This document shows positions 41,395-56,057 of a DNA stretch of 64,000 nucleotides, one piece after another (positions within the stretch are counted from its first letter, which is position 1; each line of letters starts with the position of its first letter). The DNA comes from Sphingomonas caseinilytica (GTDB lineage: Bacteria > Pseudomonadota > Alphaproteobacteria > Sphingomonadales > Sphingomonadaceae). Made by a program: the position numbers and the translations under genes. The DNA is taken from positions 434,001 through 498,000 of the forward strand of contig NZ_JAMGBA010000001.1 in assembly GCF_023516455.1 (NCBI RefSeq). Direction: 5' to 3'. The notes below the pieces were generated by a model, which was not told where the DNA came from, made no database searches, and was given only the letters and a program-made list of their open reading frames with translations.

Positions 41395-42159
41395 TCAGGC
41401 GGCAACCAGAAAGCTGGCGATCGCTTCGCCGAATTCGGGCTTGGTCACCGAACTCATGTGCGTGCCCGGAACCTCCACATATTCGGCGTCGGAAAGGATC
41501 GATGCCAATTCCGGCGCGGACCCATTGTCCTGATCCTCGCTGCCGCACAGCACCAGCGTTCGCATGCTGAAGGCGTCGATCAGTCCATGCTTGTCTTCGC
41601 GATCGCGCATGGTGCCCAGAAGGAGGCGCGCCGCGTCGCGATCGACCTTCATGGTCTTCATGAACTGGACGGCGAACCAGTGCGGATCGCCCCGGACGGC
41701 GGTTTCGAAGCGGTCGATTGCTTCGACGTAGAAATTGCTGCGGCGATCCCAGTTTGTGAGGACGTCGAGCCCAGTGCCAGAAAGAATGGCGCGGCGAGGC
41801 CGCACACCGCCGATCACCGCTTCGATGACGGTCCGGGCCCCGAGCGAAAATCCGCCCAGGTCGAACTCGGCCAAATCCAGATGCTCGATCAGCTCGACCA
41901 GATCGCGCACCAGCACCAGTTGGGGATAGTGAACATGCTCATGAGGCTTGCCGCTGAGGCCATGGGCGCGGTGATCGGGCATGATCACTCGAAACCCTTC
42001 CGCTGCGATCCGCTCCGCATGCCCGAACTTGATCCAGTTCATCTGCGCATCGGAGAACAGACCATGCAGCAAGATTACTGGCCGCCCCTCACCTACCTCC
42101 CGCCAGGCGAGCTGGATGCCGTCGGAAGTCGTCCAATAATGGGTGCTGACGTCAGTCAT
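41395..42159 (-). CDS. Alpha/beta hydrolase
   Basis: 254 aa, alpha/beta-hydrolase fold. The oxyanion-hole region is VILLHGLF, the nucleophile elbow is GFSLG (near 103), the acid lies in the CGSEDQD strand, and the catalytic His is in VPGTHMSS. No signal peptide, so cytoplasmic. Substrate unknown; the family covers esterases, lactonases and C-C hydrolases. It follows the M2 peptidase gene upstream by 96 bp and is divergent from the TIR-TPR gene. The 208-bp divergent gap up to 42367 holds no gene that I can see. Confidence 0.88.
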   Translation of the reverse strand: MTDVSTHYWTTSDGIQLAWREVGEGRPVILLHGLFSDAQMNWIKFGHAERIAAEGFRVIMPDHRAHGLSGKPHEHVHYPQLVLVRDLVELIEHLDLAEFDLGGFSLGARTVIEAVIGGVRPRRAILSGTGLDVLTNWDRRSNFYVEAIDRFETAVRGDPHWFAVQFMKTMKVDRDAARLLLGTMRDREDKHGLIDAFSMRTLVLCGSEDQDNGSAPELASILSDAEYVEVPGTHMSSVTKPEFGEAIASFLVAA

Positions 42160-42367
42160 TGCGGCGAATGTTCACCAATGTTCGCACTCGTGCGCATCAA
42201 AAGAAGTGCACACTTGGATGCAGACAGGTTTGGTGGGCATTGCAGGTTCATATCGCGTGCCGGTTCCATTAGCGCGCCGATGGCAAAGCAGTTCCTACTC
42301 CGCAAGCCCCGTCTTGCGAATGTGAAGGTTTCGGCGCAAATCCCCGGCGAACAGGGGGCGGCGGCCG

Positions 42368-44290
42368 ATGGCGACCGTGTTCTTGAGCTACGACCATGAC
42401 GACGTCGAACGGGCGGCGCCCATTGCGTCTGCGCTCGAAAAGGGCGGCCATTCCGTATGGTGGGACCGTCACATCCACGGCGGCGCAGCATTTAATGACG
42501 AGATCGAAGCGGCGGTCGAGGCCGCCAATGCCGTCGTTGTGCTCTGATCGGAGCGGTCGATCCGCTCCACATGGGTTCGAGACGAGGCTGCGGAAGGGCG
42601 GGATCAGAACAAGCTGGTCCCAGTGTTGCTCGATGCCGTGAAGCCGCCAATGGGTTTTCGCCAGTTCCAGACAATCGACCTGTCGCGGTCCGGGCGAATA
42701 CCAAGCGCAAGCTCGTTTCAGCAAATATTGGACTCGATCAACAAGGTCGGGGGCACTTCCCAAACTCGCGCGCCGGCACCGATGCCAGCAGCCAAAGCCA
42801 AGTCATCGACCCCCTTCCCTGGCAGGATCAGCCGCCGAGCTGGCATTGCGATTGCCGCACTTCTGATCGCTGCTGTCGTCGCCGTGGTCGCGTGGAACGG
42901 GCGCTGGCAGCAGACGCTTCCGGTGGTCGCCGTCGCCGCATCAGACGCCACACCGCGTTCCGAAGCGCTTGCTCGCGACCTGTTTGTAAAGCTCGGAACG
43001 CTTGAGCATGTCGGTGCGGGCAAATGGGTGCTCGCCGATCCCCAATCTACGAAATCTTCTCCGGACCTGGTCTTCAAAGTGGCCCAAACCGGTTCTGCCG
43101 CGCAGTTGCAAGCCGGCCTGACGCTGGTCGATGGCGAAGGGAACAGCCTCCTCTGGTCACGTGAGTTTGCTCAATCGGACGGGTCCGAAGCGGATGTACG
43201 GCAGCAGGTGGCCCTGGCTGCCGGTCTCGCACTTCTCTGCTCGCTGGAGGCAAGGGAAGATCATGGCCTGCCTCCTGAACTGTTCAAGCGGTACATCGGA
43301 AGCTGTGCGGAAGCGGCCTTGGGCAGCGAAATGGATTCCGACAAGGCCGTCACAGCCCTGCGATCGATCATCGCCGAGCGACCGCGCTTCAAGGCGGCCT
43401 GGGCGTTACTATTATCGGCGCAAGCCAGCGTGGCCGCCATTGCCGAACTTGGAAGCCCAAGCGAAGCTGCCAGCCATCGCCGAACGCTGCTGCAGGACCT
43501 TGAGAAGGCACGCAAAATTGCACCCAACCTGCCGGAAATTGAAATGGCGGAAATCCAATTGCTGTCGCCGATGGACTTTGCCGGAAGGCTGGAGCGGATC
43601 GGCCGGGCCAAGGCGGAGGCACCCGAAAAGTCCGTCATCTGGGGTTACGAATGTACAACCTTGAAAAGCGTGGGCCGTGTGATCGAAGCAATTGCGGCGG
43701 CGCGGCGTGCAGCAGAACTTGAGCCCTTATCTCCGGCGGCAGCGAACGAAGTCATTATGACGCTGGCATATGCAGGAGAGTTTGAGGCGGCGAGAAAAGA
43801 GCTTGCCCGTGCTGAGCGAAATTGGGCCGGGACCAAGGCACTTCGCGATGGGCAATGGGCCTTTCACCTGCGCTTTGGCGACCCGAAGTTCGCAATGGCC
43901 CTGGCGGAGCAATCCACCAACCTTTACCTTCAGGCGCGACTTGCGCCGACGCCTGAAAAGGTCAACGCAATGATGGCCGAACTAGAGCTCGCATCGCCAT
44001 CGGTCGACGCCGAGTTCGGTTATGCGATACAAGCGCTCGCGGAATTTGATAGAACCGACGATGTGTATCGCTGGTTTGACCGCGCCCCGGTTTCGACCCT
44101 GGCAAGGCAGTCCTATCTCTTCTTCCGCCCGGCGTTTGCCGACGTATGGCGCGATCCCCGGTTCATGAGCGTGGCCAAGCGAAACGGCTTGCTCAACTAT
44201 TGGCAGAAGAGCGGCAAATGGCCGGACTTCTGCTACGATCCGAAGCTTCCCTACGACTGCAGGAAAGAGGCAGCAAAACTAGGCGCCTGA
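42368..44290 (+). pseudogene. TIR-TM-TPR protein gene broken by one in-frame TGA
   Basis: One reading frame of 641 codons with a single internal stop, TGA at 42545-42547 (codon 60). The first 59 residues are a TIR domain start (ATVFLSYDHDDVERAAPIAS, GGHSVWWDRHI, ANAVVVL). The stop falls where TIR proteins usually have Trp in V-L-W-S, and translation in the same frame continues SERSIRSTWVRDEAAE and KLVPVLLDAVKPPMGF. Next come a transmembrane helix (about 158-176) and a periplasmic TPR-like region ending WQKSGKWPDFC. The rest of the frame is intact, so the change looks recent: a mutation, a read error or read-through. The C-terminal part is paralogous to the gene at 53160. Confidence 0.82.
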
Positions 44291-44306
44291 ATAGCTCGCG
44301 CTCCGC

Positions 44307-44759
44307 CTAGTCAGGCAGTTTCCCGGTCGTTGCGACCCATTTGTCGACGAGTTTTTGATATTGGTCTGTCCGATATTCGGGCAGGCCTTCGGTGTTCAGC
44401 CAGGCGCGGTGCAAGCTCTCGACCCCGAAATGATGCTTCGGTTTGAACGGGGACGGGTCGTCGAACGCGGCGACGGTCAAATCCATCTTGTCGGCGTCGT
44501 CCTTGAACATGAAGCCGAGCGACGTTCCGCAACGTTTGCAGAATGGCCGCCTCGCGATCGGAGAGCTGTCGTACCAGTCCGGCTCCCCGTCCCAGCTCAC
44601 TTCGTCGATCATCGCGTTGATCATGGCGATGGAAACCGAGCCCGTAGCCTTCTGGCACATACGGCAGTGGCACAGATAGGCGTCGTCCGGCTCGACAGCT
44701 GCCTCGAACCTGACCTTCCCGCAGGCGCAGCCGCCGCTCATCCTTACTTTGGCTGTCAT
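44307..44759 (-). CDS. GFA/CENP-V family zinc protein
   Basis: 150 aa of the family named after the glutathione-dependent formaldehyde-activating enzyme. The zinc-binding cysteines are present: GGCACGKVRF, CHCRMCQKATG and CKRCGTSLG. The enzymatic role of most members is unproven. AAGGAAGGG precedes the ATG at 44759; a longer frame to 44885 is rejected on that ground. It is convergent with the TIR-TPR gene (16 bp between stops). Confidence 0.9.
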   Translation of the reverse strand: MTAKVRMSGGCACGKVRFEAAVEPDDAYLCHCRMCQKATGSVSIAMINAMIDEVSWDGEPDWYDSSPIARRPFCKRCGTSLGFMFKDDADKMDLTVAAFDDPSPFKPKHHFGVESLHRAWLNTEGLPEYRTDQYQKLVDKWVATTGKLPD

Positions 44760-44840
44760 TTCCCTTCCTTGCCTCCGCACGACTGTTTTCGCAACGCAGG
44801 ACGGTTGCAGCGCCTGAGTAGCCGCCGCTATGCCCAGCCA

Positions 44841-53159: not shown

Positions 53160-54986
53160 ATGGCGATTGATCTGGGGAAGGAGCCACCGCTCCACGTTGG
53201 CGGTGCATCCATCGACCCCGTATCCCGCGAAGCAAAATATGCTGGCGGCCTGGAAAGGCTTCAGCCGCAGACCCTCAAGGTATTGATCGCGTTGACCCGG
53301 CGTCGGAACGAGGTCGTGACCCGGACGGAGCTTGTCGAGTCCTGCTGGGATGCCAAATTCGTTGGCGACGACGTCATCAACCGGTCCATCCTGATGCTTC
53401 GCCAGTTCGCCGAGCGCGCTGGCGGTTTCACCATCGAGACGGTGCCCAAGACAGGCTACCGGCTGGTCGAGGACGAGGTAGGTCACGGACCCATCTCACG
53501 CCGATGGGTCGCCGCCGCTGTCGCGATACTGCTGCTGGCCGCCGCTGCTATCGCGATTTGGCGGCCATGGGCCGGCACGGATGTCACAACAGTAGCAGTG
53601 ACTGCGGCGGACGGGTCAAAGCTATCTACCGAGCTATCGCAAAGCCTGCTCACCAGGCTTGGCAGCCTTCAGGCGGCGAAGACCAACCGGATGAGGCTAT
53701 TCGAACTGGACCGGCAATCGGGCGGCAAGGCGGACCTGATCTTCGAGGTAGGCGGCACCACAAACGAGCATGTGACCGAAGCCAATATCGTCCTGCTTTC
53801 CGGCAAGGATCGATCGGTGCTGTGGTCGAAGGATTTCAATCAGCCGCCGGCCAAGCTAGCTGACCTGGAACAGACCGTTGCGTTTACGACCGGACGGGTC
53901 CTTGATTGCGCGCTGGAAGGACGCTCGGCCGAAGGCAGGCAGTTGCCGGGGGACAGCTTCAAACTCTACCTGAATGGCTGCGCGATCCTGGCCGATGCCT
54001 ACCGCGTCGATCCCAAGCGGGTCATCCCGATCTTCACGCAGGTCGTCCAGCAGGCGCCGAAATTTGCCAGCGGATGGGGCAAGCTGGTCCTTGCCGAAGC
54101 CCAGTTCGTGAATGTCGAGATCATCTTCTTCGACCGCAGGCCGGCAATCCCGGTCGAGCAGCACATCGCCCAGGCGCGCAAGCTCGATCCCCACATTCCG
54201 GAGGCCTATGTCGCCGAATTCCTGATGCTGCCGATCAGTTCATTCGATGAGCGGCTCAAGCTCATCGATAAGGCTTCGGGCGTTCATCCCAATAATCCGG
54301 ATCTTCTCACGATCCGTTCCGAATTCTTCCTGACGGTCGGGCGATTGAACGAAGCCGTAGAGGCTGCCCGCCGGGCGTTCGAGTATGACCCGCTGACACC
54401 TGGGCTCGGCAACAACCTAATCCAGACGCTTGCCTACTCCGGGCAGACCGAGGTTGCCGCCGGGGAACTGAAACGTGCCGAGCAACGGTGGCCGGGAACA
54501 CTGACCTTGCGCGATGCGCGCTTCCGCTTTCACCTTCGCTACGGCGATCCGCGCATTGCACTTCAGATCGTGCGGTCGGAGGGCATTAGCCAGGAATTTG
54601 AAGAATTCCTCGTCGCGCGGATCGACCCGACGCCGCAAAACATTGAGAACGCTGTCAACGCCGTTCGGCAACGGGGAACGACCACCGCCAAATCCATCAA
54701 CGACCTCACGCAGCTGCTTGCCCAGTTCGGCCGAGAGGATGAGGCCTATGACCTCATCATGGGATGGAAGCGCACGGACCAGGCGGGCGCAATGAGCGGC
54801 ATGCTGTTCCGGCCCACCACCAAGAAATTCAGGAGCAATCCTCGCTTCATGCGGGTTGCCCAGCATCTTGGTTTGCTGGCGCATTGGCAGAAGAGTGGGA
54901 AATGGCCCGATTTCTGCGCCGACCCCGACCTTCCTTATGACTGCAAGGCCGAGGCGGCAAAGCTCGCCAAGGAACGAACCAGCTAG
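53160..54986 (+). CDS. Winged-helix (OmpR/CadC-type) - TM - TPR protein
   Basis: 608 aa. An N-terminal winged-helix DNA-binding domain covers about residues 10-103 (LQPQTLKVLIALTRRRNEVV, NRSILMLRQFAE, TVPKTGYRLVED). One transmembrane helix follows at 116-134, then a periplasmic region of about 470 residues with TPR-like repeats (LNEAVEAARRAFEYDPLTPG). The layout is that of CadC-like membrane-bound regulators that sense with the periplasmic part. The C-terminus WQKSGKWPDFCADPDLPYDC is nearly identical to the broken TIR gene at 42.4-44.3 kb. GGGGGGAA lies 5 nt before the ATG. The stop overlaps the DUF924 gene by CTAG. Confidence 0.88.
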   Translation: MAIDLGKEPPLHVGGASIDPVSREAKYAGGLERLQPQTLKVLIALTRRRNEVVTRTELVESCWDAKFVGDDVINRSILMLRQFAERAGGFTIETVPKTGYRLVEDEVGHGPISRRWVAAAVAILLLAAAAIAIWRPWAGTDVTTVAVTAADGSKLSTELSQSLLTRLGSLQAAKTNRMRLFELDRQSGGKADLIFEVGGTTNEHVTEANIVLLSGKDRSVLWSKDFNQPPAKLADLEQTVAFTTGRVLDCALEGRSAEGRQLPGDSFKLYLNGCAILADAYRVDPKRVIPIFTQVVQQAPKFASGWGKLVLAEAQFVNVEIIFFDRRPAIPVEQHIAQARKLDPHIPEAYVAEFLMLPISSFDERLKLIDKASGVHPNNPDLLTIRSEFFLTVGRLNEAVEAARRAFEYDPLTPGLGNNLIQTLAYSGQTEVAAGELKRAEQRWPGTLTLRDARFRFHLRYGDPRIALQIVRSEGISQEFEEFLVARIDPTPQNIENAVNAVRQRGTTTAKSINDLTQLLAQFGREDEAYDLIMGWKRTDQAGAMSGMLFRPTTKKFRSNPRFMRVAQHLGLLAHWQKSGKWPDFCADPDLPYDCKAEAAKLAKERTS

Positions 54987-55534
54987 AAGGTTTCGCCGCG
55001 CTCGATCACTTCCCGCTCTTCGGGCGTGCTGACCCGTCCCAGGGCCTGGTTGCGCCCAGGAAAGCGGCCGAAGCGCCTGATCTGCTCGTGGTGAAGGATA
55101 GCGAATTTGTAGTTGAACGGATCGCGCTTCCGGAATTCGGCCAGCGACCGCTCCTGATCCTCTTCCTTCTCGCTGTGCATCAAGGGCATCAATATGAAGC
55201 TGGGAAGCGGCTGCTGAACCTTGTCGACCCAGTCCCTATCCAACGCTTCCCTGCATAGCTCCAGCGCGAGTCCGTCCGCCTCGAACGCCCTGGCCGAACC
55301 GCGATATATGTTCCGGCTGAACTGGTCGGTGAGGATGATCGCCGCAGCCAACGTCTCCGGCCTGTCGCGCCAGCCCGCTGCCTTCGTGGCCAGCACCTGC
55401 TCCCGCACCTTGCCGAACCGTTCGGCGATGTGTCGGTCGATCGACGTATCTTTTTTCCAATGCTGTTCGGACGAGAGCTCCTCGCACCAGAATTGCAGAA
55501 CGGCGCGCGCGAGATCAGCAGGAGAGCCGGTCAT
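54983..55534 (-). CDS. DUF924 family protein
   Basis: 183 aa of the DUF924 family, all-helical and TPR-like. Visible: VLQFWCEELSSEQHWKKD near the N-terminus, ILTDQFSRNIYRGSARAFEAD in the middle, FILMPLMHSEKEEDQE, and a conserved end, FGRFPGRNQALGRVSTPEE. No biochemical function is established. It is convergent with the winged-helix gene, the stops sharing CTAG, and a family A repeat lies just upstream. Confidence 0.93.
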   Translation of the reverse strand: MTGSPADLARAVLQFWCEELSSEQHWKKDTSIDRHIAERFGKVREQVLATKAAGWRDRPETLAAAIILTDQFSRNIYRGSARAFEADGLALELCREALDRDWVDKVQQPLPSFILMPLMHSEKEEDQERSLAEFRKRDPFNYKFAILHHEQIRRFGRFPGRNQALGRVSTPEEREVIERGETF

Positions 55535-55545
55535 AGAACTTACTC

Positions 55546-55612
55546 GTCATTCCCGCGAAAGCGGGAACCTAGCGTTATTATCCTTCTGGGTCCCCGCTCT
55601 TGCGGGGATGAC
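55546..55612. repeat. Palindromic intergenic repeat, family A
   Basis: Second full copy of the 1337-1408 element: GTCATTCCCGCGAAAGCGGG at one end and CCCCGCTCTTGCGGGGATGA at the other, with CTAG/CTGGG centre arms. It lies between two minus-strand genes. Confidence 0.85.
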
Positions 55613-55622
55613 GAATTATAGA

Positions 55623-56057
55623 TCACTTCGACGGTTTGCCCCGCGGCGGGCCGCCAGGACGGCCACCGCCCGGCTTTCCACCGCCCGGCCTTCCGCCTCC
55701 CGGTCCGCCATTGGGCCCTCTCCGCCCCGGACCCTTACGGAAATCGCGGCGGTCGGCCGGCGCGCGGCGATCGCGTTCCGGCACACGGTCCATCGGGCGT
55801 GATTGCTGAATTTCCTGCTTTGGACCGACCGCATAGCCTTCCTTCAGGAACTGGGTGAAGGCAGAACGTACGCTCTGCGCGATCGAATCCTGAACCGGCT
55901 TCGGCAGGTCGCCAAATGTCGTGTTGCGATGCACGCTTTGAAGATCGCGCAGCATCAGGTTGGGAACGCCTTTCGACGCGGCCTTCATGGCCTCCAGCGC
56001 GTCGATCACTGCTGACAGCAGGATCGATTGCATGACGTCGGACGCTGCTCTTTGCAC
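55623..56057 (-). CDS. Hypothetical protein with helical head and Gly/Pro/Arg-rich tail
   Basis: About 144 aa from a GTG at 56057 that has AGGAG seven bases upstream; the ATG at 56033 would give 136 aa. Residues 1-85 are ordered (MQSILLSAVIDALEAMKAAS, NTTFGDLPKPVQDSIAQSV, FTQFLKEGYAVG). The remainder is a basic, low-complexity RGG/GGRPGG-like tail, reminiscent of RNA-binding or disordered segments. No family was recognised. It is divergent from dapF, whose start is 66 bp away. Confidence 0.7.
   Translation of the reverse strand: MQRAASDVMQSILLSAVIDALEAMKAASKGVPNLMLRDLQSVHRNTTFGDLPKPVQDSIAQSVRSAFTQFLKEGYAVGPKQEIQQSRPMDRVPERDRRAPADRRDFRKGPGRRGPNGGPGGGRPGGGKPGGGRPGGPPRGKPSK

Follow-up and report, generated by a model that had tools for sequence, protein, structure and literature searches.

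A single in-frame TGA within a TIR membrane receptor gene of Sphingomonas caseinilytica: probably a recent nonsense allele

A gene for a TIR membrane receptor in Sphingomonas caseinilytica is cut by one TGA at codon 60 (42545–42547), the sole internal stop of a forward-strand frame that runs from the ATG at 42368 to a terminal TGA at 44288–44290, which raises the question of whether this codon is a mutation, an error in the sequence or a stop that the cell puts to use. The gene lies in a stretch of 64,000 nucleotides that was analysed as a whole (the window; Table 1). The frame is continuous apart from the one codon, as originally described, and counts 640 codons before the terminal stop; domain matches flank the interruption, which rules out a chance open frame. 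The original prediction left three possibilities, namely a recent nonsense mutation, a read error and functional read-through. Our analysis best supports the first and places a read error second, but it speaks against read-through, as no relative carries the stop and the genome has no system to decode it. We put the probability that this is a recent nonsense allele of a dispensable TIR membrane receptor at about three in four.

Table 1. Positions of the interrupted gene, its parts and its neighbours in the window
Feature	Position	Strand	Remarks
Interrupted TIR-TM-TPR gene	42368..44290	+	640 codons + stop, one internal TGA
Likely ribosome-binding region 5' of ATG 42368	42352..42367	+	CAGGGGGCGGCGGCCG-ATG, plausible
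Open part, 59 codons then TGA: TIR betaA-alphaA-betaB-alphaB-betaC only	42368..42547	+	
In-frame TGA, codon 60	42545..42547	+	TGG in all 113 distinct relatives
Perfect 7-bp hairpin GGAGCGG-TCGAT-CCGCTCC, begins 2 nt 3' of TGA	42550..42568	+	not conserved
Codon 73, invariant Glu on alphaC, putative NADase catalytic residue, 3' of stop	42584..42586	+	
Residual frame from first in-frame GTG after stop, 555 aa, TM + ectodomain, no usable TIR	42623..44290	+	
Predicted TM helix, residues 159-178	42842..42901	+	predicted structure
Predicted periplasmic ectodomain, residues 186-640: alpha/beta domain then TPR-like helices, CadC-like by fold	42923..44287	+	
Flanking alpha/beta hydrolase	41398..42159	-	adjoins GFA gene in many congeners
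Flanking GFA-family gene	44310..44768	-	adjoins hydrolase in many congeners
Intact paralogue, same TM + TPR ectodomain, winged-helix DNA-binding output instead of TIR	53160..54986	+	

With Trp at codon 60, residues 4–110 match the TIR_2 family (Pfam PF13676) with an E-value of 1.6e-23 and 83.9 bits against a gathering score of 28, and the earlier claim that the TIR domain would be whole if the TGA were TGG is confirmed. The predicted structure of the read-through protein (mean pLDDT 82) has the TIR domain in approximately the first 110 residues, then a low-confidence linker, a helix at residues 159–178 compatible with a membrane span, an alpha/beta domain around residues 186–300 and TPR-like helices from there to the C-terminal end. 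Within the proposed TIR-TM-TPR architecture the TIR domain and the TM helix hold, but the TPR repeats are divergent and the Pfam TPR models stay below threshold in the interrupted protein; the evidence for TPR-like repeats comes from a family-profile search and the predicted fold. When the whole model is compared with solved structures, the periplasmic domain of CadC (3ly7; E 6.4e-6) comes out as the best fold match, at a sequence identity of approximately 14%, and the protein thus has two traits of CadC-like receptors, this fold match and a single predicted TM helix. We infer that the ectodomain is periplasmic, a location that the conserved cysteines fit: C291, C313 and C622 are nearly invariant in one comparison of relatives, and C622 and C631 are invariant in another.

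Scanning contigs with the single protein as query found no relatives, though a scan with an alignment as query did, and codon 60 is TGG in each of the 113 distinct relatives with sequence at the site; the TGA occurs in the interrupted gene only, and the conserved Trp of the original prediction stands. According to the predicted structure and the alignment, this Trp is the last residue of strand betaC, followed by alphaC with Glu73, which is kept in 114 of 114 aligned sequences and aligns with the DE of the plant RUN1 and RPV1 TIR domains. The catalytic Glu of several TIR NADases has been catalogued (PMC10022894), and Glu73 falls in the same region. The 59-residue product lacks Glu73, the TM helix and the ectodomain, and because the stop precedes the invariant, putatively catalytic Glu it cannot work as a TIR domain; presumably NAD+ cleavage or signalling would be the activity lost with the TIR output. 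The change itself, TGG to TGA, is a plain G:C to A:T transition outside any homopolymer, and 48 codons of the gene, 15 of them TGG, are one such transition from a stop.

The remainder of the frame had been described as free of decay, and leave-one-out profile scoring with 13 full-length members agrees, placing the interrupted protein among the intact ones at 1.165 bits per residue. Changes are seen at 3 of 65 invariant columns, the stop itself being one of the three, and downstream of the lesion there is no visible decay, as a young lesion predicts, in a comparison whose nearest relative is 47% identical. In a neutral simulation a second disabling change followed after a median of 5–16 substitutions, depending on the assumed share of indels; since the rest of the protein scores as intact, the lesion would be young. 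Taken by itself, the lack of decay fits a young stop, a gene still in use or a wrong base equally well.

The genomic setting bears on whether such a gene could be lost. The two flanking genes, both uninterrupted, are direct neighbours in many congeners, often within 30 nt of each other; in other congeners 0.9–3.9 kb of differing content separates them, and no orthologue of the interrupted gene was found at the same slot in congeners. Gene order thus indicates that the interrupted gene is a lineage-specific insertion into a variable slot (42160–44309), on the strand opposite to its neighbours, and an insertion between genes that usually touch makes dispensability plausible. The hydrolase-GFA slot of two other genomes holds TIR-TPR genes of a different class (G009, L126:3487-5247; G043, L133:2908-4683).

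The wider family is large. We identified 14 TIR_2 genes in this genome of 2.78 Mb, and similar numbers occur in several congeners, with at least 18 in one. The interrupted gene is the only one of the 14 with a stop inside the domain, the other 13 being uninterrupted, and among approximately 150 TIR_2 matches listed from 71 congeneric genomes (the named ones being Sphingomonas and Sphingomicrobium) there is no other with a stop inside the domain. Loss in the family is nevertheless recurrent, since members are broken elsewhere as well: one in genome G025 by a TAG at the invariant Trp330 (L062, minus strand 10740-8839), and one in G040 by a frameshift. A second TIR match (8653-8339) lies just downstream of the TAG-broken relative on L062. 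Two further candidates for TAG-interrupted relatives, G040:368660 and G050:C67, both end naturally at that point and were left out of the broken count. On a contig labelled as a Klebsiella pneumoniae MAG (L214) we observed a TIR match 57% identical to the TIR domain of the interrupted gene; the label probably reflects contamination or mislabelling.

The interrupted gene belongs to a large and diversified family of Sphingomonadaceae membrane receptors, with a cytoplasmic TIR domain, one TM helix and a CadC-like periplasmic TPR ectodomain; the searches we made found no literature describing this exact TIR-TM-TPR architecture. A paralogue approximately 9 kb downstream (53160–54986, forward strand) shares the WPDFC..PYDC end and carries a Trans_reg_C winged helix at the place of the TIR domain. 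Judged from sequence, output domains (TIR or Trans_reg_C) appear to have been swapped on one ectodomain family. Elsewhere in the window, a forward-strand ORF at 55221–55802 contains, at about 55548–55613, HSRESGNLALLSFWVPALAGMT, which resembles a translated REP-like palindromic repeat of a kind common in this group.

A sequencing or assembly error, with a sense codon and an intact gene in the living strain, is the leading rival, and one that we consider unlikely though well short of negligible. The rest of the gene is intact and conserved, and the site adjoins a perfect inverted repeat, inverted repeats being a known context of short-read errors. However, the assembly is good (6 contigs, completeness 100, contamination 0.02), no interruption is seen in the flanking genes or in the other 13 TIR_2 genes, the base differs by a simple transition away from homopolymers, and other genomes have broken family members too. 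We take the mutation to be genuine in the living strain, the TGA being known from the assembly of one genome. A TIR-less second form, also proposed originally, fares much worse: a start after the stop would yield a TM-ectodomain protein acting as a decoy or silent sensor, and the frame left has 555 codons with the TM helix and ectodomain intact, but the in-frame starts (GTG 42623, TTG 42626, GTG 42638 and ATG 42650) come 75–102 nt past the stop and no ribosome-binding site is seen before any of them. Internal restart was accordingly rejected, and restart across 75 nt is in any case unlikely; we saw no relative that lacks TIR in this way, and the relative without a TIR domain that we examined in the window has a winged helix there. 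We regard this form as the least probable of the explanations considered.

Functional read-through, in which low-level decoding of the TGA as Trp would give a little full-length TIR receptor beside the short fragment, seems to us improbable. In several bacteria TGA leaks more than the other stops, and decoding by near-cognate tRNA-Trp would restore the exact ancestral residue (PMC7918605 and works cited there). The frame 3' of the stop is undecayed, and a 7-bp hairpin begins 2 nt downstream. Against this, the stop is kept in 0 of the 113 relatives, and the base after the TGA is U, so that it is not in the leaky context UGA-C. Nor does the genome offer a means of decoding. Selenocysteine insertion is ruled out, as no SelB is found in the genome above the TIGR00475 cut-off and the weaker hits resemble other translational GTPases. 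Among 42 tRNA loci (ARAGORN) none has a UCA anticodon, and the one tRNA-Trp is normal, with anticodon CCA and G24; the Hirsh-type suppressor change being G24A, both a suppressor tRNA and a mutated tRNA-Trp are ruled out. Loss of RF2 is likewise ruled out by an intact RF2, and a change of genetic code was rejected, as TGA is the terminal stop of the interrupted gene and of several relatives, and none of the other TIR genes contains an internal TGA. The perfect hairpin right behind the stop is unexpected and points the other way, but adds little. A similar one follows 0.8% of window positions. In most relatives 1–3 of the 7 pairs form, about as with slid partners, with a best case of 6 of 7 in one; the full 7 bp exist in the interrupted gene only, and a conserved stimulatory hairpin was therefore dismissed. 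With the TGA in the A site, a hairpin at 2 nt spacing would be inside the mRNA channel of the ribosome, which would be expected to melt it so near the stop, leaving it poorly placed to stimulate read-through. Having been spotted after the fact, not conserved and too close to the stop, it carries little weight. A more specific version, in which the TGA would be a strain-specific, slightly leaky stop, aided by the hairpin, that cuts the dose of a costly TIR receptor while near-cognate tRNA-Trp restores the ancestral residue, we offer as speculation and think quite improbable.

For the reading that we prefer, a recent nonsense allele, the events would be simple. A single G-to-A change would have made the invariant Trp60 codon TGA, and translation from the normal start would end after betaC with a 59-residue fragment without the catalytic Glu, with loss of the TIR output; the portion 3' of the stop would be essentially untranslated, and the gene would now be a pseudogene of recent date or a null allele at strain level. 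Such a broken gene is nothing unusual; it adds a clear example of what seems to be recent loss among the TIR membrane receptors, a large bacterial family. More useful as a lead is the family itself, with a CadC-like ectodomain joined to TIR or to a winged helix even within one window.

Comparison with known systems places the locus among single-nonsense pseudogenes and null alleles (PMC7918605), with which it has in common one in-frame stop, a conserved frame and a codon one transition from a stop. That survey took in-frame stops as functional, and kept them, where they are common to orthologues of at least two species (PMC7918605), whereas the TGA at 42545 is shared by no relative. Selenoprotein genes and other programmed UGA recoding similarly show an in-frame UGA followed by a hairpin, but here there is no SelB and neither stop nor hairpin is conserved. 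The order of the TIR fold is common to NADase-type TIRs (AbTir, ThsB of Thoeris, plant RUN1/RPV1), and the alphaC Glu aligns with the DE of RUN1 and the matching region of AbTir; unlike these, the TIR domain here is N-terminal on a membrane receptor, and the interrupted copy is broken before the Glu. No Thoeris model exceeds its cut-off on the interrupted protein (PADLOC ThsB 19 bits, Pfam ThsB_TIR just below its cut-off), and no ThsA partner lies next door, the Pfam-matched neighbours being a hydrolase, GFA, an M2 peptidase and a 2OG-Fe(II) oxygenase. The CadC/ToxR-like receptors share the layout of a cytoplasmic output domain, one TM helix and a TPR-containing ectodomain in the periplasm, though sequence identity in the CadC fold match is low. 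Their output is a DNA-binding winged helix, whereas that of the interrupted gene is TIR, and the winged helix is found in the paralogue downstream.
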